From: Scatophagus argus
Taxonomy: Eukaryota > Chordata > Actinopteri > Scatophagidae
DNA: 64,000 bases
NCBI RefSeq assembly: GCF_020382885.2
Contig: NC_058504.1
Location: 15,201,019 to 15,265,018, forward strand
Direction of reading: 5' to 3'
Of the stretch, positions 5,913 to 54,600 are shown one piece after another (the first letter of the stretch is position 1; every line of letters begins with the position of its first letter). The position numbers and the translations under genes are program-made. Under the pieces are notes generated by a model. That model made no database searches, had not been told where the DNA came from, and was given only the letters and a program-made list of their open reading frames with translations.

Positions 5913-8900
5913 ATGAATGCTGATACCTGCAAATTATTTGAAAGAGTTGCTCAAAAGATGGGATGGGCCGATGAAGGAGGACTGGACAGAGCAGAAAAAA
6001 AGGTTTGTTGCAAATCTCACGAACCTGCAAACAGTACAACGTTACTAACCCTTCGGGGATAAATAAAGGAATTCTGATTATACTTTAAATAAAGATAGGT
6101 GTCAATTGGGTTCCTGGGAGAAATACCAGCTCACAAGCCTAAAAAGTACAATGGGAACAATTAGTTGATCATTTGCCTGACAGTCGATAAATGTGCAACT
6201 TTTTTGGGAATTGCTTTAGTCGTTTTCTCTAGCAAGAATGGAAACATTCGGCTGTTTCGGCCTCTTAAAAGTGATCATCTGATGCGTTTAAAAATCATAT
6301 CATAGCAAACTGAATATCAAATCAAAGTAAGTAAGTTGAGTAGTTGTAAAATTTATTACATTTTTAAAAAATATTTTTGACATTTCGTTGACAAAACGAC
6401 TAATTATTTGCAGGCCTTTTTAAATGCTGAAAATGCTTGCACAAGTTAAAATGGCGATCTGTCTGTCTTCATTGTTTATAGCTGCTAAGCTCAATCGGCA
6501 AGCATCGTCATGCTGCCACAAGTGCTCATCGATCTGTGGATCCATCAGCCTCAGCCGTTCAACTATCTGACAGTGAAGATGATCCAGACAAGGAGAACCA
6601 GATCTCAAGGGGCAACAATTACAGAAACACATCTTTGATTGAGTCTAGTGATGATGACTTTGATCAATGTGAGTTAAGTTGTACGAATTTTGTATATTGT
6701 ATGTGGCTCAGCTTGGAAATACACTCATTTGTTTATTTTTATTTCCTAGTTCTTGTGGGAAAGGCCACACCGAAAGCTAAACCTACACCACTGACACCGT
6801 GCAGTGCTGCAGAGAAAGGCAGGTATGGACATGGGATGCCCTGCAAATGTTTTCTTGAAGAAACACATTGTCTTGTTTCTGGTTTCCGTTTCACCTCTCA
6901 TTTGTTTTGGTCATGATTGTTTAACTTCTGTTTTAGTTCGAATGTACTTGTGATGAGCTCGGACGATGATGGCAGTTTTGAGACATGTAAGTTGCCTTTT
7001 TTTGCTGGTGGTTACAGTCTGTATCTGTAATCAATTTTAACACTGCGTGGATGATGGCAGAAACATTTTTATACCGTGTGTCACATTTTTCTTCCACATA
7101 TCCTCATTTTGCACATGGAAGTTCTACAACGAGTGAAAACACCTATTGCTAAGCCTAAGAAAACATCAGAGAGTGGGAGTGGAGATAGGTGAGTTTCTGA
7201 TGAGTGTTTTTTTTTTCCTCCAAATGCATCCTTACTATCTGGAAAACTCTCTTCTGACAAACATCTGTTTTGCCTTTATTCTCTCTAAAGCCTCAAAAAT
7301 TTCATAGTGGATGACTGCTCATCAGACGATGACTTTGACACAAAATCATCCTTTAAAGGTAATTCCGAATGACCTTATCCGTATTATATTTCGAGGGAAA
7401 GCAACACAGAACTGTGCTGGTGTAACAGTGATGTGTCCACCGTTTTGCAGTGGCTACGAAGCGCACTACTCCAGCAGCCCAGCATCCACAGAGGAGACCG
7501 CTGTCTCAGTGTGACTCCCCGGTCTTTATTAGTGACAGTGATGATGATGATAATATTGTGGTCAAGAGCACTTGGAGAACTCGTCACTCAAAGCCCCTGC
7601 CAAAGGCTAAAATCAATAGTGGTGTGCTGGGTTACGAGGAGGATGGCTCGCCATCACTGCCTTTCTCTTCTTCTCTGACATCGCTGGCCTCTCCCAAGCG
7701 CACTTTATCAGCACCTTCTAAGCTGGATGAATCTGCCAGTTCTGAGGAGGAGTTCACATCCTTACTGGACAGACTGAAAAAGAAAAACAAGTTCACTGGC
7801 ACTTCATTCTCACCCAAGAACACGCACGGTAACTGCTTTATTCGGGCTCTTGCATTTTAACAGTCTCTAGCATTTGTTTTCATTCTAGTTGCAAGGTGCT
7901 GATGTCTTTTTTTATTTGCTTTGTTTTTGGATATAGAATGTATTAAGGACCCTCCTGTGTCAGTCCCTCTTGTTAAAGGATTTAAAAAACCAGCCCCTAA
8001 ATCATTAGGGGAAACCTCTCTGCAGGTTAAGACACCAGGAAAATCCACATTCTTGAAGCCTACAGTCAGTCAGACGGAGCCCAGACACGGCCCCACCAGC
8101 AGGTACTGTACATCTGTTGACCAGTTTTTATGTACAGACTTGAATGTTGGCTAAGCTATTCCAAAGTTTTAATGATTTATTGTGTAAGGTGCCTTTTATT
8201 AGTGTGTTCGTCATGCATTCAGTTTGTCTTTCATACACTCTAGTCTTTAGTTCACCTCGTTTGCTCTCTTTTAGGGTAGCATTGTGTAAGACCCCAGGGT
8301 GCTTTTTGCAGTCCTTATCAAACTCTGGCACCTGTTTTAAGCAGAAAAAAGAAGAGCTCACCCGCAAGCTCTACCAGCTGTACAACACCAGCGTGTTTGA
8401 TGGCAAGGTGATGAACCACAGTTTTTTTTGTCTATTGATTCAGTTAAAGTTTTTAGAAAAGTCATCTGTTTTTGAATGTGTAAATATTTTTTTTTAAACA
8501 TATATTACCTTGTCTGACATGATTTTTAGCTCCCTGTCAATATGTCTGTGACTTGGAATAAGAAGATGAGGAAAACTGCTGGGTACTGTGTCACAGGGCA
8601 GGAACGAGGGGGAGGGAGCCGCTATGCCCGCATTGAACTGTCAGAGAAAGTCTGTGATTGTGCAGGTAACATCTCAGTTAAGCCAAATACACTAAAGTTA
8701 TGAAGTATGTCTGCTTGAAAGTCCCTTAGTGCAGATATGTAATGTCATCCTCATCAATGGTAAAAATTTTCATGTGTGTTTTGATTGAATGTCTTCATCA
8801 CATCCTCGTTGTTACACCCTGTTAGATCGTCTCAGGGACACTCTGATTCATGAGATGTGTCACGCTGCAACTTGGCTTATTAATGGTGTAAGGGACGGCC

Positions 8901-9379
8901 ATGGGAACTTCTGGAAGCTGTATGCTCGCAAGGCCACGGTGGTTCATCCTGAGCTGCCAATGGTCACTCGCTGCCACAGTTATGACATCAAGTACAAATT
9001 CCAGTATCAGTGCACCCGCTGCCAGAATATGTACGTCTGACTTATTTCAAATTAATTGAAACCACGAACCTCATTTGTTCTTTGTTATTCACCTTGCGTT
9101 TATAGACTGGTGTATTAATCTGTACACTTGATTATGATTCTTCACAGGATTGGACGTCATTCCAAGTCACTTGACACACAGAGGTTTGTGTGCGCCCTCT
9201 GCACAGGACAACTGGTCTTGCTGACGCCCTCCAAGCCCCGGGCTCCCACACCTTTTGCCAACTTTGTCAAAGAGAACTATGGGACTGTACGACAGGAGCT
9301 TGCAGGACAAAGCCATGCGGAAGTGATGCGTAAACTCAGTGCCGACTTTGCCTCTAAAACTAAACTCAGTCAAAGCTGA
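5913..9379 (+). CDS. gcna: germ cell nuclear acidic protein, SprT-like protease domain (GCNA/ACRC)
   Basis: GCNA family proteins act in germ cells on DNA-protein crosslinks and genome integrity. Exons: 5913-6002, 6482-6668, 6750-6822, 6937-6986, 7122-7188, 7291-7358, 7451-7828, 7937-8102, 8275-8407, 8530-8665, 8826-9030, 9148-9379; 594 residues. The N-terminal half is acidic and disordered with four hydrophobic-then-acidic motifs (SLIESSDDDFD, VLVMSSDDDGSF, FIVDDCSSDDDFD, VFISDSDDDDN) that look like SUMO-interaction motifs. The C-terminal half has a SprT-like metalloprotease core with HEMCH and a later HGNFW, a four-Cys zinc ribbon (CTRC...CALC), and an HMG-box-like tail from TPFANFVKENYG. 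Position beside ogt matches mammals. The start is the first ATG after a good acceptor; an upstream coding exon cannot be excluded. Confidence 0.92.
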
Positions 9380-9779
9380 GATCTTGGCGTTCACTGTACT
9401 TCGGGCCATGGACTGAACTGCACAACCACAGGAAACCTTTTGAAATATTGAAATACCACTGTTGACCAGTCTTACAATTGAGCAGCTGTGATCATTGGAT
9501 CTGCTTTAACTGGAAAAACTGAGCCAAAACAGCAAGTTTGTGTGTGTGTGTGTGTGTGTGGATAGTCGGTGTTGTACAATGAATTATTTCACACTGTCTG
9601 TCTTTCCTGTTATTTAAAACATACTGGAGATCAGTTTCTTAAGCAGTTAACATTGTATAATACCAATGTAAAAGTACGAATAGATGCATATGTATGTGTT
9701 TTTATATTTGGCTGTTTTGATTTTTTTCTTATAAATTCTAGAAATAAAGTTTCAATGTGTGACTCCACTTCGAATTGAC
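9380..9779 (+). other. gcna 3'UTR with poly(A) signal
   Basis: Noncoding sequence after the gcna stop. It contains a short TG microsatellite near 9539-9560 and an AATAAA at 9743-9748, which probably ends the transcript near 9765. Confidence 0.6.
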
Positions 9780-10607
9780 CCTTTATTTATGGATATCCTT
9801 ATGAGAACAGTTCAGGGTTATATAATGAGAAAACTAACTTGCCTCATGTTGATTTAATTTTATTACAGAAGATTTTGGTTGTATGTTATGGGTTTTGAAA
9901 GTTAGTTTCAGCCATAAATTACATGCAACTTTAGGTGCATTAATACAATTACTTTTTCTGGCATTTGCACTTGCATGTAACAACAACTAATCTGCTTCAA
10001 TTACACAACTCAGATAAATTTGTGTCTAGTTGTTCACACCAAGGGATTATTTGAGCTACTAAATTAAAAAGAAATTATTTTCTTTTGCAGTCCAGGTGTG
10101 ACCATGAAACATTTTATGGAAACATGGTGATGAGTATGGATGAGAGCAGATGGTGTTAAGTTTTCCATGACTGTGCCTCAGCTTTCTGGCAAATATTGAC
10201 AATACAATTCTATAGAGATCTATTAATATTCTCCCTGACTTTTGTATAAATACATAAATGCAATCCTGATAACAAACACTAGCTGTTGACACATCGCTGA
10301 CTGCAGAGATGGTTTTTGGGCCTGAGATCAGACACGTTGATGTGGTGAAGCTGAGTAATTGGACAGCCTGTAATGCTGGCACATAACAGGTAGAATCATT
10401 TGCACTTCTCACCATGTGTCTACTGTGCTATGTCACGCTGGAATATTCAAGACAGAAGAGCAACTTTGAAATGTGAGGGTGAGTCTACTACATTTTTTTC
10501 CTCATTTGAAATGTGGTCAATGTAATTTTAGCTGGTTTTTAAACCACCCACATGCTAATGACTTGTCATTTTGTCTTACTGGGAAACAAGACTACCATCT
10601 TCATGTC
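9780..10607. other. intergenic, no gene seen
   Basis: AT-rich stretch between gcna and the receptor gene. A 118-codon minus-strand open frame at 10059-10415 has no recognisable domain and no splice partners and is not called. The first receptor exon may begin within the last 100 nt. Confidence 0.5.
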
Positions 10608-10888
10608 ATGGACATCAACTGCAATGTGACAACACTGGAGGCCCAGACACAGATTAACTCCACCATCTTCGACCTGGTTAAGACGGTCAGCATGTGTGTG
10701 AGCTGCACCTTGAACACCATCCTCAGTGTTCCTTTACTTCTGGTCATCACGCGAAGCCCGTCTCTCCTCCGACAAACTCGCTTCCTGCTCCTCACACACC
10801 TCCTCTTTTGTGACAACCTCGAGGTACTGAAAATCTACACTTTTTTAACTGTGGACAGATTGTCCAGTAAGCCTTTTCTTAATAAGTG

Positions 10889-10927
<39 letters not shown>

Positions 10928-12190
10928 CCTTTTCAGCAGCTCATCAGCACAGTCAAAGCAGTTCTCTTAAGGTCCAGAGAAGGCATACCTGTGGCCCAGT
11001 GTCTGATCTTCTGTGCTGCCATCCAGGCCTGCCTGATGGTTTGTAAAATATTGTTTATAATTGTGTGATGTTTTACAGTAGACATTATTACTCATTTTTA
11101 GTACAGACTAATTGGTCATTGTGGTTGCTCCTCCTGTTCATATTGGCCAAGAAGAGTTCTGTTCCCAATGTGATTCTAATATACTGCAAGCAATGCGGAC
11201 CAAATTCAACCCATTGTGTGCAAAAACTGAAGCTTTTGCATCCAAATTATAGAATTTGCTCCCCTCTTACTTGAAAGTATCTCTTCACCATTAACTCATT
11301 CAGTGTAAAAATGGACATGCACTGTCTTAAGGCTGACTTGAAATAAATCTCCAGTGTGCATAATGTCTGTGCAGAATATGTGTTCATTATTCAGGAGAGA
11401 GAAAAGCTAAGTTACAGAAGAGATAAGACTCGTTTTATCTGAAAGCCTCTTTGAAAACTCTGTGATCTACTCTCGACTGTCAGTCTGCCTGCTCTGACTC
11501 TCCTATAATCTAAAACTTTGTAACAGGTAGCAGCCAAAAGTGAGGGTTGCATGCATCTACTTCATGTATTCACTGTTTTTTTTTCTACAGGTGGACCTCT
11601 TTCTGAGCACCGCTATGGCTGTGGACCGTTTCGTAGCTGTCAAGTTTCCCCTGCGCTATGAATTCTTGATATGTCCTCAAAGGAAGAGAGCAGCTATTGC
11701 AGCCATATGGACATTATCAGTTGTGGTCATCAGTGTGTCTCTGTGCATCGACCTCAACACCATCCAGGTCAATTTTTCCCTTCCCCGTTGTCGACCTCTC
11801 ATCATGACACCCTGCCTGTCTAGGACGTCCGCAGTGGTACTTTACTGCACCGTGGGAGCAGCTCTGCTGACGCCTCTCTGCTTCCTGACCATACTGGGAT
11901 GCTTCTGCCTGCTTTGCTGGGACATGCGGGCAGGCCTGCTCTGCACCAAGAGAGCTGGCGTGACGCTGACCCTGCAGGTAGTTCAGACCATTCTTTTTTC
12001 CGTTCCTGTAGTCACAGACAGCTACTTGATCCCTGGCTACCTGCACAGCGATGCTCTTGATATAGCAACCACAATCACCTACAACCTGGGGGTGTCACTC
12101 GTCCCCCTGGTCTATGGCTACCGCTCACGGGAGCTGCAGCACAGGATACGCCAAGCTGCACACAGGAACAAAGAGAACAACCAAAGTTAG
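10608..12190 (+). CDS. rhodopsin-class 7TM receptor, odorant receptor 131-2/GPR148-like
   Basis: Three exons (10608-10823, 10937-11038, 11591-12190) with phase-0 junctions give 305 residues. Seven hydrophobic helices are visible. The short N-terminus has two N-glycosylation sequons (NVT, NST). TM1 contains ILSVPLLLVITRS. TM2 is interrupted by intron 1 after FCDNLE. TM3 is interrupted by intron 2 and ends in MAVDRFVAV, a DRY variant. TM7 ends VPLVYGYRSRE in place of NPxxY. The pattern resembles fish OR131-2-like and GPR148-like receptors, but I cannot decide between them, so no symbol is given. Ligand and G protein are unknown. Two coding introns distinguish it from the usual single-exon odorant receptors. 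The start is the ATG giving a short glycosylated N-terminus; a longer in-frame extension upstream lacks support. Confidence 0.8.
10894..10926 (+). repeat. (ATC)11 microsatellite next to a splice acceptor
   Basis: Eleven uninterrupted ATC units occupy the 3' end of the 113-nt first intron of the receptor gene. They end 10 nt before the acceptor, where the branch point and polypyrimidine tract normally lie; only cctttt remains as a pyrimidine tract. Confidence 0.9.
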
Positions 12191-33739: not shown

Positions 33740-36113
33740 TCAGTGTTTTCCTCTGGCTCTGCTCACAGCAATGTTTTGGATGTGCTTCCACAGCAGCGAA
33801 GGGTCTGACTCGTTATGTCTTATCAGAGACTCCAGCCCCTCTGCTTGGTCCAGGCTCTGCCAGTAATCCGGAGGCCATGTTTGCAACCATCTGCGGACAG
33901 ATATACAAACCGATTAGGCTCATCATAGAGGATGTTTTAATTAGACCATTAAAATAGACTCATTTCTCTCCCTTTAGGACATTGTTATTCACATTAATGC
34001 ACAGAAAGTGGAACAATTTCACACCCAAACACAGCAAATGATTAAAGACAAACTCACCCATCATCTGCTGGTAAGTCTTGGACATGTCCATACCCCGGGC
34101 TGGGCAAGGGGCAACCCATGTGAGAGTTGTTGGCCATTTTAGGCTGAGGAGGTTGGTTCTTCTTAGGAGCTTTCCTATACGCCCGTTCTGCTGCCAGTCG
34201 CTCATTCTCCTTGTCACACACGTAACATTCAAATCCATTTAGGTAGTTGGGCTTACTCATGTCATTAACCCCCCACTCACGGGTCTCCAGAGCCTCCAGC
34301 AAACGAGCGTTAGTAATGCGTTTGGGATTCTTGAACTCTAAATATTTTGCATATTCATCATCGTTACCATCAAGATGTTTGAGGAATTCACCGAGAGCTT
34401 TTGGCGAAGGGAAATTATCTATGATGATTACAGAGTGGTCGTTGGGCATCCAGTCTGCCACCACAGGAGAGCCTCGATATACAGGCACACAGCCCTGATG
34501 GAGAGGCCGCCACAGCTTCTCCGTCATGTAATCTGGACACAGGCCGTTCTCCAACGCCAGGTGAAACTTGTATCGCGCAACAAAATTCATAAAGTTGTGA
34601 TCTTCGCCGGTAGCTGTGGCCGTGTCCTCCAGATATTCAGGTAAAGGTTTGTTGTTCAAGCATTTTCCATAAGAGTCCACCTACAGAGGGAAAAATTATG
34701 TGTGAGAAAGCAGGGTTTGGGAGAAGATTATTAATGTGACACTAATATATCATTCCCCAAAGGGAATTCTAAAATATCATATTAGGCGCTATATTTCTAA
34801 AACATTTACAGGGGTGTTACTGCAGTTGCATGCTTGAAGATGAATGATTCTGACTTACTAAGCTGTACAAGTGGAACTGAGAAAGATTCTGGGCAGAGAT
34901 TTTCCATACATATGAACTAATTGACATTTATTGGCTACGGTAAGATTCAGAATGGGGGTTTGGACTACTCAAAATGGTTTTTGGCACTGAATAGAAATTT
35001 GTCATGCCATTCGTGCAGTACAGGCACAGAGGCAAAACAAGTAGAGGATGATATCAAAATAAATAACAAATAACACATAAACAAATCACACGCCTCCCTA
35101 AATCTGCAAAACTTGCTTCTGTTTATATTACAGCAATGCAACAGCATGAGGACGATGGAACTGTAAATTATAATAATTGGAAAAGTGGACCTAATTAAGC
35201 ATATATCCTGTATATAAGTGTCTATTCTCCCCTGGTGTGAATCTTGGTTTAAAGAAAATGGTTCTGAAAGAACATTTCTGTACTGTACCTGAATGTACTT
35301 CATGAGCTCCTGGACATATCTGTTTCTGTCTGACGGTACATCGCAGTGAGACTGCATGTAGAGCACAGGAGCCAGGCCCTCCCTCCTCAGCTGGTTCTTT
35401 TCCTCCAGGGACACAGCCACGGGCATCAGCAAGTAGTCCAGAGAAGGCAGCCACTGCAGGGTCAGAGGATAGTCTGACTCTCTGCGAAATGTGGCAGTAT
35501 AGTTGAATAGCCTGATCCCCGGTCCATGGGAGAGGACGTAGTTATTCATGGGTGACTCTTCATGGAACAGTGCCCAGGTCTGGTGGCGAAGACGAGGGAG
35601 CGGCGCCTCATATGCCCTGAAGTCTGTTCCATAAAAGATGATGGATGCTGTCCGTTTGTACAACTGGACCTTTCAAGATCAAGCTTCATATTAGTGGCAG
35701 AACAACCTCAGATGATAATCATTATTAATGTGAGCATTCCCTCTGCCTAAGCCAAGGTTAAATATCTCTGGTACCTTGCGGTTGCTTGTGACCAGGCACG
35801 AGGACGTGGCACAGTCAATGCGTTCAGTGTCACCAGGAAAATGTGGGAACAGTCCTCCACTCCACCAGAGGAGAATTGGCAGCTCCTTGTTGCTGCGGGG
35901 GTCACTGTTGCCAGGTCCTCTGTATGAGGTGATGGAGGCAAACTCCATCTCTGACAGAGCACTCTGGGGCTGAAATGCTCCTCGGTCCACTGCCTCCAAG
36001 GCCTCCAGGGAAAGTTGCTCGTCTGGAAAGGAGGCAAAGGAGACCCAGACCCAGCACAGGACACCAGACAGCCCCAGACATAGACAGGGCACCAGCCGGC
36101 CCCTACCTGCCAT
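33740..36113 (-). CDS. fut11: fucosyltransferase 11 (GT10 family)
   Basis: Golgi/ER type II membrane glycosyltransferase that uses GDP-fucose. Originally named an alpha-1,3-fucosyltransferase, it has more recently been reported as a protein O-fucosyltransferase acting on EMI domains. Minus-strand exons: 36113-35775, 35669-35289, 34680-34058, 33890-33740; 497 residues. A hydrophobic anchor ([20 protein letters not shown]) follows the start. The stem and N-terminal lobe contain [28 protein letters not shown] and HEESPMNNY. The GDP-binding lobe contains [20 protein letters not shown], followed by VPVYRGSP. The C-terminal part has [11 protein letters not shown] and a FUT11-type tail with [10 protein letters not shown]. 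Similarity is clearly higher to human FUT11 than to FUT10. An in-frame ATG 45 nt upstream (36158) would add 15 residues. Confidence 0.95.
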
Positions 36114-37531
36114 CTGCAAGGTTGAAAAGATCAGGGAACACATTTCCGAGGCTTTCATTACTCGGATACAAATAGATCATCATTCAAATAGACAAACAAA
36201 ACAACTCTCTCATCTTTCTGATCCAGGTGGACTTCCTCGGTCACGCAGATTAAGTTACGCCCTGTTTTGGTGCCCATAACTCAAATGAAAGTGTTATGGA
36301 TGCATCTATTTTTCTTCCTCACAACTAACTTTGTTTAACAAACAACTGACTAACGTTTCAATCATACGTGTCAGTGATTTCTGAGCATGCATTAATGCGA
36401 AACGTCTACAATTTTTCCTACCATTTTCACTGCAGCGAAAACATGAAGGGGCGTCTTTCTTAATTCTTCAAACCACAAACATAAGAGCTATTCTCCGCAC
36501 AAGCTGGTTCAGATGATAAAATGCTGTCTGTTGACAATAAACGCTGCGGAGCAGTTGCATTAACAACAGCTGGATTCTTCTTCTACGTTTCATTTTGGGG
36601 GTCACAAACGAAGTCACAACGCACAACGCCACCTTCAGCCCTGGAGTGTAACTTGCTATTACATGTTTGAGGCAAATTCAACTCTAAATAATTCTGTCGC
36701 AAAATATTCCAAAAACATTTTACTAGAATACAGTATAATGTATGTAATGAGTATACATAAAAAACAACGTAAAGAATCCTAGAAAAAAAATCAAAATGAT
36801 TCAAAACAGCGTTGAAATATAGTCTCACACACAAACAAAAGCAGTCTTGTACATTTATACTACAGTAGCAGAAAATGTAAAAAGACTGATATTCCTTAAT
36901 TTTTTTTCTAATGGTTTCAAATGAATTGCAGTTTTATAAAATAATCATTTCAGAATCACAGTTTCACTTTACAGATTTTTTTCTTTTTTTGTATGTGTAT
37001 CAGTGGATATCATGCAGTTTTAAGAGCAAAATGCACTTCAAGCACCAGAGATAAATTACTTGTTTTGAGCCTCTGTGAATATGTGTTTTCTTTGACTATT
37101 TGTTATGTGGTTTGTTGAATTGTATATAATATGCATGCATGTATTATGCAGTCCATGTATCTGTTGTACGTGTATTTTTACTTTTACTTGAAAAATTAAA
37201 GTTAAATTAAAGGGTTGAACGAATTAAATGAGTTATCCCACATTATTACATATTTTATTATTCGAGTGTTAAAACATATAAATAAGATTTATTGGATTTA
37301 CTTTTGGGTGGTGAAATCTAAAATAATGCATCACATTTTGCAAGTTCAACATATATTTTGCACGAAGAATATGCGTGTGTATATACATCTTAATATGCAG
37401 TAACAAGGGACGTCGGCTCGCCGGATGTGCACGCGCAGCTATTCAACGGGAACGCGCACGTCACGACACTCAATCTCAGTCAGATGTAGGGGAACAGGGC
37501 AGACCACGCAAAATAAGCTGTTAGGAACAGG
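36114..37531. promoter_or_regulatory. divergent fut11/rab9b flank with presumed rab9b first exon
   Basis: About 1.4 kb of noncoding DNA, AT-rich in the middle. Near 37430-37460 the sequence becomes GC-rich with a CRE-like acgtcacg, and a noncoding rab9b exon probably ends at 37531 (donor gtgagt), splicing to an acceptor at 38471-38472. Overlapping leader sequence of fut11 is likely between 36114 and about 36560. Confidence 0.45.
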
Positions 37532-38552
37532 GTGAGTGACTATATATGCTTGGTTTGTATATGTTAGATGCATTCAGATACATCAACCTACTGCAACACG
37601 TATTTTTGTTGCTTACAGTTGTTTTTAGAATTGTTTTCAATCGCTAAAGGCTAGCCTGACCAGAATGAAATGTCAACAAGCCTTAGCCGGCTAGCCTGCT
37701 AGTAAGCTGGGAGGTTTACTGAGCCGCTTCACAGCATTACAGTTACATTGTCTGTCGTATTCAGTGTTTTTCTCAGCTGTGATACCTGTTTCGGTTCCTG
37801 TTCGGTTAACTTTTGTTATGAAGCACTTCATGAGCTGTTTCGTACGGACTATTGACAGTAGTTAAATCACAGTTTTAGCCGCCAGCCCCTGTTGACAGCA
37901 AGCTGGTACATGTTTGTGGTCTGCGCAAGTGCAGTGGTCGTTTTCAGAGTCGGATTACTCGCCCCTGTTGTTGTTGTTGTTGTTGATGAGGGGTGGGACT
38001 CATATACTTCTAATAGTTTGTGTATTTTTTTTTTACGTTCATGTCCTACGCTGTGATTGTCAGAAAGAGTGAATATGTAGATTATCACGAGTCTCTCACT
38101 GTGTCAAGAAGTGAAAAACAAGGCTGTAATCATCAGTTTCAGCGTTTCAACCAGAGACCTTTGGCAGACATCCCCGCCCTTCACCCCTGTCACAGTGTCC
38201 CTGAAACTAGTCAACCATTACACTTCTCTCTTATGGTTTTCATTTGCTGTCAGAAAGGGTCATTTCAGGTTGAATACAAAAGTTGCTAGAACAGCAGTCT
38301 TTTCCCCTTGTTATCTACACTGAATTATGAGCGAGGCCAAGTTCATAGTCTTGTTTGAGAGTTAAATGTTTTCTGAGAAGTCATTAGTTTCATTTCCTAT
38401 TGCAAATTTGAGATTTGCATCTCTCTTTGAATGCACAGAAGTATCTATTTTTGTGTTTTTTCCTCTTTATAGGTTAAATTGACCCTGGCCTGCCACCAGG
38501 TGTTGATGCCTGTAACCCAGTGAGAAGGCCTTGCTGGGTGGGAGGAAGCACA

Positions 38553-39161
38553 ATGAGTGGGAAGAACATACTCTTGAAGGTGATCCTGCTGGGGGACGGT
38601 GGAGTGGGCAAGTCCTCTTTAATGAACCGCTATGTCACTGATCGCTTTGACTCCCAGTCCTTTCACACCATCGGCGTGGAGTTCCTAAACCGGGACCTCG
38701 AGGTGGACGAGCATTGGGTTACACTTCAGATCTGGGACACGGCAGGCCAGGAGCGTTTTAAGTCCCTGCGTACGCCCTTCTACCGAGGTGCCGACTGCTG
38801 CCTGCTTACATTTGCTGTGAACGACCTGCAGAGTTTCCAGAACCTTGGCTGCTGGAAGAAGGAGTTCATGTACTACTCTGATGTTAAAGACCCTGAGCGG
38901 TTCCCCTTTGTGGTACTAGGCAATAAGGTAGACATGGAGCAGAGGGAGGTGGGGGAGGACGAAGCACGGGCCTGGTGTGAAGAGAATGGCTGCTGTCCTT
39001 ACTTTGAGACCAGTGCTAAGGATGATACTAATGTTACAGCTGCATTTGAGGCAGCCGTCAGGGAGGTTCTGGCTTCTGAGGACCAGATTGACCATGCACT
39101 ACTGAGTAGTACTATTGATCTCCATGGCAACCGCAAAACCTCTCGCACATCCTGCTGCTGA
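38553..39161 (+). CDS. rab9b: Rab9 GTPase, RAB9B type
   Basis: Small GTPase of late endosomes that drives retrograde transport to the trans-Golgi network. The whole 202-residue protein is encoded in one exon, as in mammals. GTP-binding motifs are intact: GDGGVGKS (P-loop), switch I HTIGVEF, DTAGQERF, NKVD and TSAK. The C-terminal CC receives the geranylgeranyl groups. The N-terminus MSGK, the stretches VVLGNKVD and KDDTNVT and the TIDL near the end match RAB9B rather than RAB9A. A noncoding 5' exon and a 0.94-kb intron precede it. It is tail-to-tail with plp1, the arrangement in human Xq22, which supports the symbol. Confidence 0.95.
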   Translation: MSGKNILLKVILLGDGGVGKSSLMNRYVTDRFDSQSFHTIGVEFLNRDLEVDEHWVTLQIWDTAGQERFKSLRTPFYRGADCCLLTFAVNDLQSFQNLGCWKKEFMYYSDVKDPERFPFVVLGNKVDMEQREVGEDEARAWCEENGCCPYFETSAKDDTNVTAAFEAAVREVLASEDQIDHALLSSTIDLHGNRKTSRTSCC

Positions 39162-41700: not shown

Positions 41701-42433
41701 GGAGACTCTATCATGTCTGTATTTTTTGTGCTCATACCTTGAACATTCATGAAGGTATATGGTTTTAAAAATGACTTTCAAGTGTGAAATGTGGCTCATT
41801 TTCAAGTTTGAAATGGGTCACTCAAATTAATCAGTATACTTCAGCTCTCCACCTCGCTGTAGCCATTTTCATCATCAGAGACCAAAAGTCCCAGTATTTG
41901 CAATACTAAAATGAAACAGTACTCTTTCTCTCAGCAAGATCATGTATTAAACCTTGAATTTTTACTCCAAAACACACCTTGTTTGAATTTCATCGCACAA
42001 GACCTTGAATGTTCTTGAGAGACCATGTATGGGGACCCAAGAGTCAGTGAATGCTGTTTATTACCCCTTCATTAAAAAAAAGATATCAAGCATGCACCGC
42101 ACACTGTGAAACTAGGCCTACAGCACAGAAAAAAGGTTTTTTTTTTTTTTTTTTTTCCCTCCATGTCTGCCTGTCAAGCTACACGTTTTTAAATCTCTGA
42201 CTAAAATAAATGTACATAAAGAATAGATTCTCTGGACACTGCTCAAATGCAGAACATTAGAGGAAATACACTGTTATGGCTCAGTTAAACAAAAGTTCCC
42301 AACTGCATTTGTACCATTTTACAACCTTAGCCGCAACATACAGCAGTCTATGTTTTAATGAAATAATCAATAATGAGGGGAATAAAGTTCACAGATGCCA
42401 CTAAGTTGTCCTACCAAAAGTGAGATGACCAGC
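41701..42433 (-). other. rab9b/plp1 convergent gap and 3'UTR of the distal plp1 exon
   Basis: A minus-strand AATAAA (TTTATT at 42057-42062) lies about 375 nt past the stop of the distal plp1 exon. The gap between the two predicted transcript ends is only about 350 nt and contains nothing recognisable. A T-run lies near 42136-42155. Confidence 0.45.
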
Positions 42434-42616
42434 TCAATTGCAGTGGTCATCATGGGAAGCTAGAGGTGTGTTTGCCGGGTATGGAGAACACAGTGTCCCT
42501 CCTCTGTCTCTGTGCAGCCTCCCATACAGGTCATAGCCTCTACTCTCCTCTTTCGCCCTGTGCCTCAGCTTCCTCAGATACACCTGGTTCACAGCCAAGT
42601 GCAGGGAACAGTGCAC
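42434..42616 (-). CDS. plp1: candidate alternative terminal exon of plp1 with M6-like tail
   Basis: Minus-strand exon with a good acceptor (gtccacag|GTG) and 60 codons to a stop, in phase 0, the phase at which plp1 exon 6 (44548-44483) ends. Joined to exon 6 it reads ...ITLLAL|VHCSLHLAVNQVYLRK and then a charged tail with RHRAKEES. This resembles the GPM6A/GPM6B terminus (LIHFLMILSSNWAYLK followed by a Lys/Glu-rich cytoplasmic tail). GPM6B is known to have two alternative C-termini, so the choice may be ancestral to the family. No transcript evidence is available; it could instead be the last exon of an unseen minus-strand gene. Confidence 0.55.
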   Translation of the reverse strand: MHCSLHLAVNQVYLRKLRHRAKEESRGYDLYGRLHRDRGGTLCSPYPANTPLASHDDHCN

Positions 42617-44003
42617 CTGTGGACACAAGAGGATAGAATACAAACACCTTACAAAATACCTTGCCCCCACAGATGTGGCAGGAAGCCAGTTAAACACTGT
42701 GACACTACACCAGTCACGAGCAAATGTTTTCAGAGGGACTATCCACAAATATTTCAAAGAATATTGTTTTTATTATCAAATTTTACCAACATGAAAAAAA
42801 AAAAAAATCATCAAATAACCAGCGGCTGCTGGACAAATCCACCACTCACAGCTGGGTAAAGCTTCAACAAACAAAATAATCTACTTATTATGTCGCAAAA
42901 GGTTTTGTTAGTAATACCCAAAGTGTAGAAGTAGTAATAAATTCAGCTACAGTAAACAGAAAGCAGTGTTATATAATAACTACAAAGACAAAACAAAGCT
43001 GTCCTTTCTCTATAAGTACCTCAGTCATGCACTGACAGCCGGGAACTCACGCTTCAACAAAGAGTTTTAGGTTGGATAAACATCACTCACTCGATACGTT
43101 AGCACCTAGTGCTTTTTCCCATCTCAAAATTATGAGAGTAACAATTTCAGATCTTTGTAGATCAGAGCAAAACAAGTATGTCTCTTTGTCAGAAAAAGAC
43201 TATTAAAATAATCTAAAATTCCTTCAGTCCCCTGATGGAGGTGGGTGGGGGTCATGCAGCAGCATGTGGAGGGTGTGTGTGTGTGGTTGCTGTCCTAGAA
43301 GAGTTGTATTGAGGCTCCAGAGAAGTCTAACCCTCTCTTTGTCTGGAGGACTGCCTCCCTTGACATGAAGTATAACCCTTGACAGAGACTCGTAGCACAG
43401 GTGGCCCACACAGCTGACTTCCTATTGGCTAGTTTTTAAAATGGGCATGACTCTATTGTTGATGCTTTTCTCTAGCCCGTGAGAAAAGTCTTGAGGTCAG
43501 CATGAGAGTGCAAATGCATACTTGTCTGCCACCGTAGCAACCAGATGTAAGGGATGGTAACCATGGTAACATATAATCCCTATTCTCTGTAATAGAATAT
43601 TCTAGTTGCACATGTTGCAAATTCTCACACATGTTAATTTATTAGTGGTTTGTTATTTGTATTGCGAGTGCAACAGGAAGCTGAAATGAATTTTAGACAC
43701 TAATCTCAGCGAGCAACAAGAGCAATAATTTACAACTATTTTGGTGACATGGAACTGTAAATACTGAAATAGGTCTTTGCTGCATGTAAAAGCAGCAAAC
43801 TTTACACACATAAAAAAGGAAAAAAACAAAACAACAATCTTCAATATCAACAAGAAAAGTGGAAATAAAAAGATGACATTTTTAAGAGTCTGTGACCACA
43901 GGTGGTTCTGTGCAGATGATGTGGAAGGACAGAGTTGTTGCCATCCCTTTAGTCCCCATGTTGTTGGTGAAGTAGGCATACAGCAGACAGGAAACTGGTG
44001 AGC

Positions 44004-45486
44004 TTAACACCGTGCGCCTATGCCCTTTCTCCCCAGATACCGCAGAACCGCAAAGTTATAGGTGGTTGACACAGTGTAGGTCAGCTACGGAGGTACAAGA
44101 AGAAGTGTCAGAGCAGAAGTGAAAAGAAGAAAGATCCCCAACACTAACACACTGCAAATAAGAAAAAATATGATCACAACTACAAATGACATTTATTTGA
44201 TAGGGGATGTCATCTGTACAACAGTTTCTGTAATGGAGCATGTGAGCATAATGGGTGTACCATTTGCCTGGTGTGAAAAGAAAAACCATGACAATGATGT
44301 TTGCGTCAGCTGAGAAAGAGGAACAGAGAGCAATAGTACAGAATTCATCAGTCATGGAGGCCTGAGATGCCTTGCTGCCTACACTTTGAGTGTCACCAAG
44401 TCACATGAGCCATAACACTGTTGTTGTACCCCACTGTGGAAGTGCAGCCAAAATTGGCCCCATCTGAAGCATAGTCACTCACCAGAGCCAAGAGTGTGAT
44501 GCCTGCACCGGCAAAGGCAGCAATGTAGAGGTCATAGGTCATTCGGTACTGATAGGAAGAGATTTGCTTTAATGGTGGTAACTTTTTGTCTTCATTTCAT
44601 ATCAAACACAGTGTGGAACGTGACTGCAGCGCTTGACTTGTTTCCTGGTTCTTACCTCTCGGGTCTTGCAAACATTGGACAGAGTTACACCACAAGCTTT
44701 CCCTGGCACTGCATTCCATGGCAGGAGCCCTGTTAAACATTAGATTTCTCTATTCAGTTCTATCTCTTACACAGGAAGACAATCACAGATAAAGATCATA
44801 TGAAAAGACCAAAAGCAACAACCTGTCGCTGCTTTCAGTGCTTTCTTCCCTACTTTGTGTGTGCTACTCAAAACCCTGTTGGTTACTATTGAAGACAAAA
44901 GCAGCGAGGCATAATAGCTTTTGGCAAGCATTACTAAAACATGAGTGGACAGTGATATAATTGTTGGAACATATTTTCAGCTGAAAATCAAAACGCATTT
45001 GATGAGTTACTGAGTATTCACATAATCAAGACCGACTTCGGTGATCCAGTCCTCCTCTAGTGATACAAGGTAGGTGACATTTTTGGATTTTGGTAAAAAT
45101 TCTCAATTATTGGATGGATGAAATCTGATTGACATTCATGTTCCTCTCAAGATGAATTGGAGTAATCTGACTTGAAACTGACATTTTTGATTTGACTAGT
45201 ATTTTGACAAATATCTGCAAGACTAATGACATTCGCATTAGCCTCAGATATATTCTGTGTTTAATGCTAATTATTAGCATTAACTAGCATGCCAATACAC
45301 TAAAGCAAGGTGGTGACTGATAAACATATTGTCTAAACATCAGCTTGTTAGCATTGTCATCGTGAGCATGTTAGCATGCAGACTGAGCCCATGTACAGCC
45401 TCACAGGATAACAATGGAGCTTCCTGGCACACGGCAATGACATTTGCTTAGACTGTTGGTAGGAACAATTCACTTTGGGTTTTGGT

Positions 45487-45541
<55 letters not shown>

Positions 45542-48500
45542 GGGGGGGGGGGGGGCGGTTGTTGAGAATAAAAAAAGTTATAGATTATCACCACACTTAT
45601 CCCTGAACTGAATAAAGTTACTGTGAGAAGCCAGTCTCATAGAAGAACAGGTTAACAGTTGTCATGTTACCGTATTGCCGTGCATCAACACAGAGCTGGT
45701 TGATACTCGCTGGGGTCTCAGTCAGAACGTCAATAGTGTGGCAGGTGGCATCCATGTTGTAGAAGAAGTAGACAGGCAAAGCCGAGAAGGCAAACACCAA
45801 CATCCACAGCACAGCTAGTACATATGTCATCACTATAAACTGCATAAGGAGAGAGCAGAACATTAGGGTGCGTCATTATAAACTGATGCACATAAGTAAT
45901 CTAAGAGAGTGTTTTTATGAGCAGTGACTCACTTAGTGACCACATTTGTGTTTTTCTGATTAGCTTTAGTTATCTCACTCTCTGTTCTCCTCCTCGTCTC
46001 CCAGCCACTCAGCTTTTCTTCCGCCCCAACCGCTCAAACACTCACTGTATGCTTATCTTTGCATGTCCCCAAAGGTTTTTAGCAGCTTTAAGATTTTCGG
46101 CTCAGCGCCCACCAGGGAGTGATATGTGTATTAATCCCATCCAATCTCTCCAATCCCCTTTACTTGTCCCACTCTAGGCTCTCTCACCGAGGAGCTGAGG
46201 CAACGGCCACACATGGTGCTCCTGAACTCTCCGAAGGTTTGCTTGGCAGCGCTTGTGGTATAGAAGCCCTCAGCCAACAGCACAATGCAGTAGAGGAAGA
46301 AGAAGGAAGCCAAACCATAGATGACATACTGGAAATATTGAATGCTGAGAAGAAGGAAGAAGTGGAAAGTCAAAATTCAGGGTTACAAAGAACCTAAATT
46401 TTGTGAAAACAGACTACGGCCTGAGTAGACCAATGGCTAGGTTAAAAGGAAGTCAGTGTAATGATGGAAATGCTTAAATTTGCTACTTACATGTAGGCAA
46501 GGGTGATGTAGTCCTGAAGGTTACGGGCAAAGTAAGTCTCGATGAGTCTCTCCGTCTCTGTGAGAGCCTGGTGCCCACAACCGCAGAAGAGGGCAATGCC
46601 AGAGAAACACAGCAGTGTGGCGACCAGGGAGCAGTACGGCACCCCACCCAAACAGCGCATACAGCAGTCATAGCAACCTGTTAGTCAAGATGCAGCACCA
46701 CGAAAGCGAAGGCACAGAATTAACTGATGCAACATGACAGACAGCACAGCAGAAGTTCTCTGTTCCAATGTGCAAATTATGGACAGTAGGATGTGTGGTG
46801 GTGCTTTCTCGTAAATAAGGATTTCTTTTTACTTGCCAATAATGTGGACATGTACCGCAACCTGTAAATGGGTCAGTTCAGTACAAATTCAAAAAGGCAT
46901 TTTCTCACTTTGGCTGTATTTTGTCTGGTTTTGAGATATCTACCGCTGAGATTTTTGCCTCCATCACAATGCAGTGAAGGGAGTTTAGTTTACGTTCCTC
47001 AAAGACTTCCATCTTAAAAAAAAATGCTTTCATTATTGATTAATCCTTTATTAATTTATCCTAAAAATGTCCAAAAGCCCAAGTTGACATTTTTAAAAGA
47101 CTTGCACACAGTCCAATACCCACAGAGATTACAATGATATGAAACAGATAAAAGCAGCAACTCCTTAAAGCTGGAGCAAAATAGTAGGTGATTCATTTAC
47201 AGTGGATCTGCAGTTAATCAAGTGTTTCAGCACTGCTCTAAATATTTCAACTTGCTGGATAATTAAGAGGATATGACATCAACAGTTTTCACAGCGACTG
47301 TATCTTTGGTAGAAAGTAGTTCCCATGAAAAACAGCTGATGTCAGTGGAGAGTAAAGGGAAGGTTGTTTCTTTTTTTGATAGTGTCAACACCACGTGAAA
47401 TTCCATTGAACTGGGGTGGAGGTAGAAATCCTGGAGATTTATTATCTCAAAAGATGGGCAGCTCACAAAACCAAAGCTAACTGCATACTTAGCTAAAAAA
47501 ATAAGAACTAACACTTCTTAACACTAACACAAATTCTGAAGCAACATTTTAAAGAAAATTTGCTCACGTCACTTTGGATGGAGCTGCAGCTGTAAACACT
47601 TTGGTTCACCATAAAAGCTGTGCATTCTCCCTAATAGTCATGTGCTGTTTGAATGGAAGCCAAGGACCAAGGGCATGGGGATGTGTCTGCTCTGACCCCA
47701 GCCAGCACCCTGACTCCATTCACCACCCAGCATGTGGAGTGTGAGAAAAAGGGGGAGGATGGCGAGGAGAGACCAAGTGAAAGAGAGAGAGGCTGCTTTT
47801 GTGACTGCAGAGACAACAGTCTTTGTCCCACAGCATCATGGGGGTACAAGGGCCACCAATGTCAAGCACACAAAGACCAGAGGCACCTCTATGCACATGC
47901 ACACACTCAGAAACTTCCTTCTGGGCAGACATGGGAACAAGAAAGCGATAGTGGGGAGCTGTCTGTGCTGGAAGAGGATGGAGAAGCAAATCTATAAACA
48001 AACAATGCAACTGTGTGCATGTATGCCATTACACGCTTGCATGCGTGCATCCACACAGACATGCACAATGGAAGCAGACAGACTGGTTGGTACCATTACA
48101 GTAAACACAGATGGCAGGAGGGACAAATAGATAGCTCTTCGTCTGTATGTGCGCTAAATGATCACCGTCAGAGACAAACAAACTATGAGGAAAAAATAGC
48201 AAATAACAGACAATTTTTATATATATATCAGAAAGGAAATAAATTGATTCGTATTTTGTTGTGCACAAAGACTTTGCCTCAAGTAATACATAGAAAACAG
48301 CATACACAGAAACAAGAACATAAAACCTCATACAGTGCATCAAATCAAATACCAGCCCACATGTCTTCAGATGCACCTTGAACCAGTTAACTAATTACTG
48401 TCATCACCAGCCTGAGCAAAGACCTCTGAACCAAAGCTGCCCAGAGGCAGGCCTCGCTCTGGTTGAAGCAAAACAAGCAAAGCTGAGGCCAAGTTCGGCG

Positions 48501-48793
48501 GCTCTTTAAAAATTGAGAAAGATTGCAACGGAAAGCAAATGCGACAAGGCTCCTCTGAAAGAAGTCCTGCCATCTCAAGCATGAAATAAATCTCATAATA
48601 TCAGTGGAGCATCAACCGGTGAGAAGCCGACCTCCAAACTGACAAAAAAAAAAAAACTTAATCATGTCTGATGCCCTCTCACAGCCCCGTTCACATCAGC
48701 GTGCGGTAACATTAAATAAAATGCAGATTTGTAATGTGAAATATTCTATCTGCTGATAGAAGCAGACTCCAGTGGATGGTGGTTCTTACCCAT
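44004..48793 (-). CDS. plp1: myelin proteolipid protein, DM20 form
   Basis: Four-pass tetraspan protein of CNS myelin. Minus-strand exons: 48793-48790, 46677-46491, 46344-46188, 45839-45671, 44729-44656, 44548-44483, 44084-44004; lengths 4, 187, 157, 169, 74, 66 and 81 nt, giving 245 residues. The internal exon lengths equal the mammalian PLP1 exons as I recall them, with exon 3 in its 157-nt DM20 form. The N-terminus [20 protein letters not shown] is that of fish DM20. Later segments include [37 protein letters not shown] and the tail [15 protein letters not shown]. Paired cysteines of the second extracellular loop are present. Tail-to-tail with rab9b as in human. Teleosts have more than one plp1 paralogue and I cannot say which this is. 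Confidence 0.93.
45020..45440. repeat. degraded interspersed repeat common in percomorph introns
   Basis: In the intron between plp1 exons 4 and 5. Recognisable pieces are ttcggtgatccagtcctcct, attggatggatgaaatctga, gacattcatgttcctctcaa, aaacatcagcttgttagcat and tgtacagcctcacagg. These match, in order, a non-autonomous repeat I know from many percomorph genomes. I cannot name its class with certainty. It has no coding capacity. Confidence 0.65.
45491..45555. repeat. (GT)n tract running into a G-run
   Basis: About 23 GT units followed by nearly continuous G (single T and no A) up to 45555, in the same plp1 intron. Confidence 0.9.
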
Positions 48794-51625: not shown

Positions 51626-54600
51626 TTAGTCATCAGTGTAACATTTGTCTTTGAGCCTGAGTGGAATCTCATTCTCCTCAGCGTGCCTCCGCTTGTTCTG
51701 TTGCAGACTTCTTCTCCTTTGTTTCAGGTATAAAACTGCTGTCACCACAAGCAAACATGTGGATGCCAGCATCATACCCAGGCCTGCTAACAGTATCAGC
51801 TCAGCAGATTTGGTGTCTTCCACATCACAGATGGGGGCTTTTGAGGGAGTTTGAACCAAGTCAAGTGTCCCTGCCCATGTGGGTGCCCTGTCCAAGTGGC
51901 AGTGCTCCATGCTCTCATTGACCATCACATTAACCCAGACAGTGGTATAAAGTGGAGCGGGTCTCCCCCCATCTCTGACCACAATGAACAGGTGATGCAT
52001 TCCCAGGTCCTTCCTTAGCAGTTGCTGAGCTACAGTAATGTTTCCTGACCTTGGATCCACTCGAAAGGGGCTGCTGTTTTGCACTGGCTCTGGTGCCACA
52101 ATGCTGTATGTAATCTCAGAGTTCAGTCCTGAGTCCTCATCAGTGGCATAGATCTTTGTTACCATAGTACCTGCAACGATTTTTGGCGAGACAGTCAGGC
52201 ATGAGAAGTTGCTGCTGGGAAGGATCACTTTTGGCTGGTTGTCATTGATGTCCTCCACAAAGATAGTTACCCTGGCAGTGGAAGTCAAAGCGACTGGATG
52301 CCCATTATCACTGGCCAGCAGGTAGAGTTCATAGTGGTCCTCTGTCTCACGGTCTAAGTTGGTGGTGGTGCACAGTGTCCCGTGGGTGTTATCAACAACA
52401 AAAGGTCTACTGCTATTTACAACATGCAACTCTGTGTTCCCATTCTCTCCTTCATCTGGGTCTGTTACCCCCAGCCCCCCCACCTGGGTGAATGGGGGTA
52501 CATTCTCAGGGATGAAAAAGATGAAGTGCGGGGTTGGAAAAACAGGTGCATTGTCATTCTGGTCCAGAACATGAATGGATATTGTGGTCACTGACTCCAA
52601 GGGAGGAGAGCCGCTATCTCGTGCAAACACAATGAGTTTGTGTACATGCTGCTGTTCCCTATCCAGAGAGGCCGACACAGACAGTTGGCCGGTCACAGGG
52701 TCAATGTTAAAGATTGTCGATGTGCGTTTGTCCAACCTGTAGGTCACCCTGCCGTTGTGTCCACTGTCTGCGTCTAAAGCTGAGACCCTCAACAGCCACA
52801 ACCCAGGCTGGTTGTTTTCCTCCAGCTCCAGCTGATAGTGGGACTGGAGGAATCGTGGTGCATTATCATTGACATCTGTCACCATCACCCTGAACACACG
52901 CCTCGAAGGAGCGATTGCAGTCCCATCAGCTGATCTTCCATGCACTACCACAGAAATTTGATGTTCATTTTTCATTTCATAGTCTAGGGGCTTTGATGTG
53001 GAAAGCAGATATTTGCCATTCTGTGGGCTCAAAGTGAAAGGTACTTCATTCTCAATGGCAAGTGATGAGCTTTTAAAGCTGCTGTCACCCTCAAGCTCTA
53101 AAACAGCTAAGACGGTGGGGGGCTGGTTCTCTGGTAACACCATAGCCTGCTTTTGATGCTCTGCTATGAACCCGATCTTGATCGTCGGCCCTTGGTTTGC
53201 CTTGGGGAGCACGGATACGGTTACCTGAGTGTCTGCTGGGGAGCAGTGAGGACCGCTAGCTAACACTTTTAACAGCAGCTCCTCTGGGTTGTCACTCTGG
53301 AGGTCCTGTGTTAGTCTGATGTACCCAGTGAGGCTGTCAATGCTAAAGAGCTTCTTGGCCCGCTCGGAGACTTTGGGACTGAGGGAGTAAATGATGGCAG
53401 CATTCGGGCCTGAATCTGGGTCTGTGGCTCTGACCTGAGCGACCAGCATGTTCTCTGGGGAGTCTCCGGGGATGGTGACACTGCGGGGGCTCTGAGAGCT
53501 AAAGCTGGGACAGTTGTCATTAACATCTGTCACTGTGACTATCAAAGTTGCTGTAGCACTTAAAGGGTCTGAGCCACAGTCGGTGGCCACCAGCGCAATC
53601 TGATACAGGTCCCGAGTCTCCCTGTCCAGAGCTGTTTGCACAACCAGCATGATGACAAGCCCGTCTTCCTCGACTTTTAAACTGAAAACTCCTTCAGAGT
53701 CTCCTAGGTGGTATTGCAGTTTGCCATTTTGTCTGGCATCCAGATCTTGAGCCTGGCCATCCAACAAGAAACTGGTCCCCACAGTCGCGTCCTCAGACAC
53801 CCTCAGGTGTATTTCATTGTTTTCAAAATGAGGTGTATTGTCATTGATGTCTTCTATGATCACAGGAAACTGTATAAGGTCTCCTGAGGGCCCCACGACA
53901 GCATTGTGTAGAATAATGCATTCCTCAGCTTTTGTCTCCTCGGGGCAGAGGACTTCACGATCCATCTTTTGTTCAGTGGTGTAGAAATTGCCGGTGTTTT
54001 TGTCCATCCACAAGTACTCCCGAGTCAGGAGATGGTACGGAGGTGGAAAGTCTTTACTAAGTGAACCAGCCAGAATACCAGGCTTCTGTTCCTCTGGGAT
54101 AGAAAACCTGACGGTGCTACATATGGTCAGTGGTAGTTGGACCACAACCAGCAGATTCTGATGGGAGAAGAGACAAATATCAAAAAAGCACCAATATTTT
54201 TCATTTTGGTTATAACTGGTCTTTTTGTTGCCCTTGAAACTGACAGCATATAGATGTTTTCCCCAGTGGTGATAAGGCTTGAACTTCATGCCTCAGTGAG
54301 CTCTTTTCAGAGTAGGAAACTACACAATGAAGGTAACGTGATGCCCCTCACTTATCTTCAGTTACTCTCACACACAGATAACACACATGAAAATCAAATA
54401 ACAAAGTATGTCACAATCAAGTTTTTCTTTTAACATTTAAGAGCCGTTGAAAGGATTTCCCATATAACCTCAAAACCTTTCAGTGCTCTCCACATGCTCA
54501 GTCATTACCTTCAGTGCATTTATAAGGTTAGAGAGGAAAGCAGAACATTCCAGTTCAGTCCTTTCACTCAGTCAGAAACACAGAGACAGTAATTAGATAC

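Follow-up and report, generated by a model that had tools for sequence, protein, structure and literature searches.

The plp1 gene of the fish Scatophagus argus, which lies on the minus strand of the 64,000-nt stretch of DNA analysed here (contig NC_058504.1, positions 15,201,019 to 15,265,018; hereafter the window), has two candidate last exons. The first, exon 7a, encodes a DM20-type C-terminus; the second, exon 7b, is probably a true, inherited M6-type terminal exon that is spliced alternatively to 7a. Because one gpm6b copy in the same genome has the same arrangement, the choice between two last exons most likely predates the split between plp1 and gpm6b. Judging from these sequences, we also lean towards the view that this teleost plp1 still runs an ancestral two-tail switch in common with gpm6b, and that the single-tailed PLP1 of mammals is a secondary simplification.

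A complete plp1 coding sequence can be assembled from the minus strand of the window (Table 1). Its six common coding exons total 657 nt, and the junction at the exon 6 donor (gtgagt at 44483) is thus in phase 0. Exon 7a starts after a tag (CTG at 44084) and stops at 44004, and together with exons 1-6 specifies a DM20-like protein of 245 residues; exon 7b starts directly after ctatcctcttgtgtccacag (GTG at 42616), stops at 42434, and gives a protein of 279 residues. The intron that follows exon 6 would be 398 nt long with 7a and 1,866 nt long with 7b. The original prediction had placed at 42616 a 60-codon exon with a consensus acceptor, 1.4 kb below the end of the usual plp1 last exon and in the phase needed to follow exon 6; its coordinates and length are exact, and the phase agrees. 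The PLP-specific insert is absent from the model, exon 3 having the DM20 form. The spliced protein belongs to the myelin proteolipid family (PF01275), with both tail forms far above the cut-off of 23.8: the core through exon 6 scores 306.2 bits against Myelin_PLP, the core with 7a 332.0, and the core with 7b 316.5, the alignment in the last case extending 17 residues into 7b.

Table 1. Coding exons, candidate last exons and nearby signals of plp1 (positions are those of the window)
Feature	Position	Strand	Basis
plp1 exon 1, coding part (ATGG)	48790..48793	-	gene model, donor gtaag
plp1 exon 2, 187 nt	46491..46677	-	gene model
plp1 exon 3, 157 nt; DM20 form	46188..46344	-	gene model
plp1 exon 4, 169 nt	45671..45839	-	gene model
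plp1 exon 5, 74 nt	44656..44729	-	gene model
plp1 exon 6, 66 nt, final exon common to both forms, phase 0 end	44483..44548	-	gene model and Pfam
plp1 exon 7a, last exon of DM20 type (26 aa, then stop)	44004..44084	-	gene model and Pfam
Exon 7b, candidate alternative last exon of M6 type (60 aa, then stop)	42434..42616	-	gene model, Pfam, tail scans
Acceptor of exon 7b, ctatcctcttgtgtccacag	42617..42636	-	gene model
AATAAA that may serve as poly(A) signal of the 7a transcript	43638..43643	-	hexamer scan
ATTAAA, possible poly(A) signal, 75 nt past the 7b stop	42354..42359	-	hexamer scan

In the acceptor of exon 7b, 15 of the 20 bases preceding the final cag are pyrimidines. A search for the branch-point motif yTnAy at -65 to -17 found no match for 7b, two for 7a, and one for exon 6. 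Besides the possible poly(A) signals of Table 1, a second AATAAA below 7b begins at 42062 on the minus strand; such hexamers are frequent in the AT-rich stretch around 7a and 7b, so their presence carries little weight. Motifs of the splicing regulators QKI (ACTAAY) and RBFOX (TGCATG) occur two and three times, respectively, between 42000 and 44700, and were set aside as evidence because the window's minus strand has 37 copies of ACTAAY in all. The hydropathy of the fourth membrane helix is alike in the two forms, with a maximal 19-residue Kyte-Doolittle mean of 1.89 with 7a and 1.96 with 7b. Two histidines stand among the first six residues of the 7b tail, which is charged from residue 15 on (nine K/R and six D/E).

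An open frame of this length is unremarkable in itself. A survey of AG sites on the minus strand from 44482 to 39165, covering 5.3 kb below exon 6 and read in phase 0, found 334 sites, 126 of which open at least 19 codons and 14 at least 60 codons. Good acceptors, defined as a YAG with at least 70% pyrimidine and without a nearby AG, number just 17 of the 334, and two of these 17 open at least 60 codons. A 60-codon open frame and an acceptor are by themselves not strong evidence; it is the sequence content that beats chance. In a controlled comparison, the last 30 core residues joined to 19 residues of each candidate tail were scored against Myelin_PLP for 111 tails. These comprised 7b and, out of 124 other candidates, the 110 that remained once 14 same-frame neighbours had been excluded; 7a was treated separately. 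The best of the 111 was 7b (E 3.1e-10). Exon 6 alone scored 28.5 bits, exon 6 with 7b 40.6, and exon 6 with 7a 56.1, while seven hand-picked hydrophobic control tails gave 29.8-34.6; searched alone, the 7b tail matches nothing in Pfam at E 10. The GC content over 7b is 54%, compared with 38-39% in the flanks, a value reached in 13 of 4,290 overlapping flanking windows. Codon usage was rejected as coding evidence: with a model trained on 1,653 codons from the window, 7b scores 0.186 bits/codon in frame versus 0.158 and 0.171 in the other forward frames, and 3,389 of 5,000 shuffles were as good, so that nothing is left beyond GC. Across the 48 contigs of the genome (570.7 Mb), the DNA of 7b has a single match; 7b is therefore not a repeat.

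The sequence content that distinguishes 7b is its likeness to M6 tails, which was measured against M6-type tails from four paralogous genes of this fish and a set of three DM tails. Over its first 16 residues, 7b scores a BLOSUM62 mean of 27.0 versus the M6 tails and 1.0 versus the DM tails, and the former value was reached in 3 of 100,000 shuffles. When 21,611 AG sites, taken from either strand of the window and of five paralog regions, were ranked for M6-tail likeness, 7b was fifth, with the four true M6 exons and no others above it; next below were the gpm6b DM exon (23.5) and an unrelated site (19.8). In identities, 7b matches the M6 tails at 4-7 of the 16 residues and the DM tails at 2-3, whereas the M6 tails are identical to one another at 10-14 and the DM tails at 10-11. 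The start of 7b, VHCSLHLAVNQVYLRK, resembles the M6-type helix-end pattern [IV]HxLMxLxANWxYxKD, with the Trp replaced by Gln (NW to NQ). These comparisons support the assignment of 7b as M6-like rather than DM20-like.

The likeness is limited to about 16 residues. Further along, no whole-tail likeness to the conserved charged cytosolic tail (YxDIKxKEExEL...RSKE) was detected in 7b, and in a profile HMM search of 2,160 window ORFs with the four whole M6 tails, the 7b frame was not listed at E 50 or better. The comparison of the 60-residue tail with gpm6 proteins that the original prediction had suggested came out negative within the fish's own genome: at E 10, the protein search recovered 7b itself and one unrelated 35% match that contains a stop (E 0.713), and none of the gpm6 M6 tails. 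By sequence, 7b has diverged fast, far beyond the divergence among the M6 tails.

Queried with the plp1 protein, the genome yielded five more members of the family: on C14, C24 and C11, a second gene on C12, and one on C2. Both in core identity and in a core tree of the six paralogs (FastTree), the window gene groups with plp1 and not with gpm6a or gpm6b, group names that we take from human sequences. The window core is 75.5% identical to C14 (over 216 residues), 60.5% and 56.0% identical to the two gpm6b copies, and 47.4% and 44.7% identical to the gpm6a copies on C12 and C2, for which 175 and 152 of the 219 core residues were covered. The tree joins the window gene with C14 and C12 with C2, each with support 0.998; C11 and C24, which are 83.3% identical, form a pair with a branch support of only 0.562. 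The core tree alone does not establish plp1 and gpm6b as sisters.

The last exons of the paralogs were sought in stretches of 7.5 to 16 kb directly downstream of exon 6, taking the best four candidates per gene. Among those listed for the C11 gpm6b copy, a DM-type exon lies 512 nt past exon 6 and an M6-type exon (IHFLMILSANWAYLKDASQMHAYQDIKMKEERELQDITSRSKECLNSYT) 2,419 nt past it; this M6-type tail begins IHFLMILSANWAYLKD, and the order and phase of the two exons are those of plp1 7a and 7b. Among their best four candidates each, C24 (gpm6b) and both C12 and C2 (gpm6a) have the M6 type only, and C14 (plp1) the DM type only; the DM-type exons of C14 and C11 occupy the position equivalent to that of 7a. 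Both tail types are thus found in two of the six family genes, the window plp1 and C11, with the DM-type exon preceding the M6-type exon in each. That 7b is M6-like, in phase, and mirrored in a gpm6b copy makes an ancestral shared choice the simplest reading. For the C14 ohnolog, the 15.7 kb that follow the beginning of the last exon, free of N, yielded no M6-type exon, and the gap-free 28 kb examined no relic of 7b (best tblastn E 1.6). As a separate observation, the C24 gpm6b copy (5263600-5283400) has seemingly lost its DM-type exon (best DM score 11 versus 78 in C11), mirroring the C14 plp1, where no M6-type exon was found. Outside this genome, one scan each of viral contigs and of GTDB contigs found no relatives, and a PDB sequence search returned no family member, its two hits (E 0.081 and 0.27) being unrelated by name.

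Because 7b is so far diverged, the main rival to an alternatively spliced exon is that 7b is a relic, an inherited M6-type exon that is now unused or rarely used and is drifting, its frame still open by luck or through recent disuse. The low identity of 7b to the M6 tails, relative to that within the M6 and DM sets, would fit such a relic, as would the failure to find a comparable exon in the stretch examined at the C14 ohnolog and a codon usage without signal beyond GC. However, the acceptor, the phase, the 60-codon frame and the GC content are all intact, most of which a freely drifting sequence would be expected to lose over the hundreds of millions of years since the teleost duplication, and both good acceptors and the frames of 60 codons behind them are scarce in the 5.3 kb surveyed. 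On balance, we consider a relic doubtful. The ancestral DM20/M6 choice put forward in the original prediction draws support from the M6 likeness of 7b, its phase, and the exon pair of the same order in the C11 gpm6b; a strong form of it is countered by the C14 ohnolog, in which no such exon was found, by the low count of residues in common with M6 tails (4-7 of 16), and by the genome search, which misses those tails.

It is very unlikely that 7b is a chance frame behind a chance acceptor, unrelated to the PLP family. Frames of 60 codons are not rare among the local AG sites (14 of 334), and neither Pfam, the genome search nor the M6 HMM detects homology of the tail as a whole, but a chance frame would hardly rank directly after the four true M6 exons, score best of 111 tails against a curated Pfam profile, and share the order and phase of the gpm6b exon pair.

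Below plp1, a single-exon gene for a Rab9-type GTPase of the Ras family (38478-39161, plus strand) is convergent with plp1, and about 3.3 kb separate its end from exon 7b. The best solved relatives of its product are Rab-9A (333 bits) and Rab-9B (326 bits), and it may be either 9A or 9B. The original prediction had allowed that 7b might join another minus-strand gene; between plp1 and the Rab9-type gene, none stands out by eye among the ORFs, and the neighbour itself lies on the other strand. It is thus most unlikely that 7b lies in a separate minus-strand transcript of this interval, such as a small gene or a non-coding RNA, for although the 1.4 kb stretch below 7a has AATAAA sites of its own, the start of 7b has the phase and sequence of a PLP-family last exon, with the exon 6 donor just upstream. 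No Rab9 gene was found in the 28 kb examined around the C14 plp1; that stretch also contains, about 5 kb below plp1, a 447-codon open frame (8516-9856, plus strand) whose HTH_psq and DDE_1 domains mark it as a pogo/Tigger-like transposase. Elsewhere in the window are an open exon of 888 codons upstream of plp1 (51626-54292, minus strand) that encodes five cadherin domains and looks, by eye, like that of a protocadherin; exons of a fucosyltransferase gene (34054-36176, minus strand; Glyco_transf_10 match at 34057-34680); and exons of a rhodopsin-type seven-helix receptor (10470-12190, plus strand; 7tm_1 match at 11531-12187).

If 7b is an alternatively spliced exon of plp1, as we favour, the following course of events may be proposed. 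Both last exons would already have been present in the gene from which plp1 and gpm6b descend, and the exon pairs of the two genes would share that ancestry; one gpm6b and one plp1 copy would have kept both, while other copies lost one of them, the C14 plp1 ohnolog having lost the M6-type exon. Today, the plp1 pre-mRNA could follow either of two routes. In the first, exon 6 would be joined to 7a and the transcript polyadenylated there, producing the DM20-type protein of 245 residues with a short basic tail. In the second, 7a would be skipped and exon 6 joined to 7b, about 1.9 kb downstream, through the predicted splice from 44483 to 42616, producing an M6-tailed protein of 279 residues in which the fourth membrane helix has a different end and is followed in the cytosol by a charged tail of about 45 residues. 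This teleost plp1 would then specify an isoform beyond DM20, with an M6-type end to its fourth helix and a long, charged, fast-evolving cytosolic tail. Such a tail may alter the trafficking or the partners of the protein, which would fit a neuronal or non-compacted use.

Alternative last exons of the DM and M6 types are a known arrangement of GPM6B in mammals, and the M6B isoforms include two C-termini. Compared with gpm6b, the window gene has the core of plp1, and its 7b tail is longer (60 residues versus 49-50) and much diverged. The gpm6a copies on C12 and C2 have an M6-type last exon whose start carries the helix-end pattern resembled by 7b, and in both of these copies, unlike the window plp1, the M6-type exon is the only last exon found. 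The mammalian PLP1 exon plan is that of fish plp1, and the DM20-type last exon and the convergent Rab9-type neighbour of mammalian PLP1/DM20 are also present at the fish gene; at the human locus, the neighbour of PLP1 is RAB9B. The fish plp1 core is 60.3% identical to human DM20, although the human reference sequence used may be inexact. Mammalian PLP1 differs in its PLP-specific insert, which is not part of the fish model, and is known with a single last exon. The C14 plp1, an ohnolog by sequence, has a DM-type last exon like that of the window plp1 and differs from it in that no M6-type exon was found there. Mammalian M6B, as referenced in PMC3438117, has multiple splice isoforms (Werner et al. 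2001). Among the matches listed from open-access titles and abstract openings, there is no report of an M6-type last exon in plp1, and RefSeq or Ensembl annotation may list the isoform.

In mammals, the principal proteolipid of CNS myelin is PLP/DM20, whose C-terminus is cytosolic and adjoins the fourth helix. An M6-tailed form of one fish plp1, if true, would suggest that a myelin protein arose from an M6-type neuronal protein by dropping one last exon. Two plp1 copies in one fish, with the exon in one alone, would offer a natural experiment. The design of fish plp1 knock-outs and reporters would also be affected, since edits at 7a would spare the 7b form.
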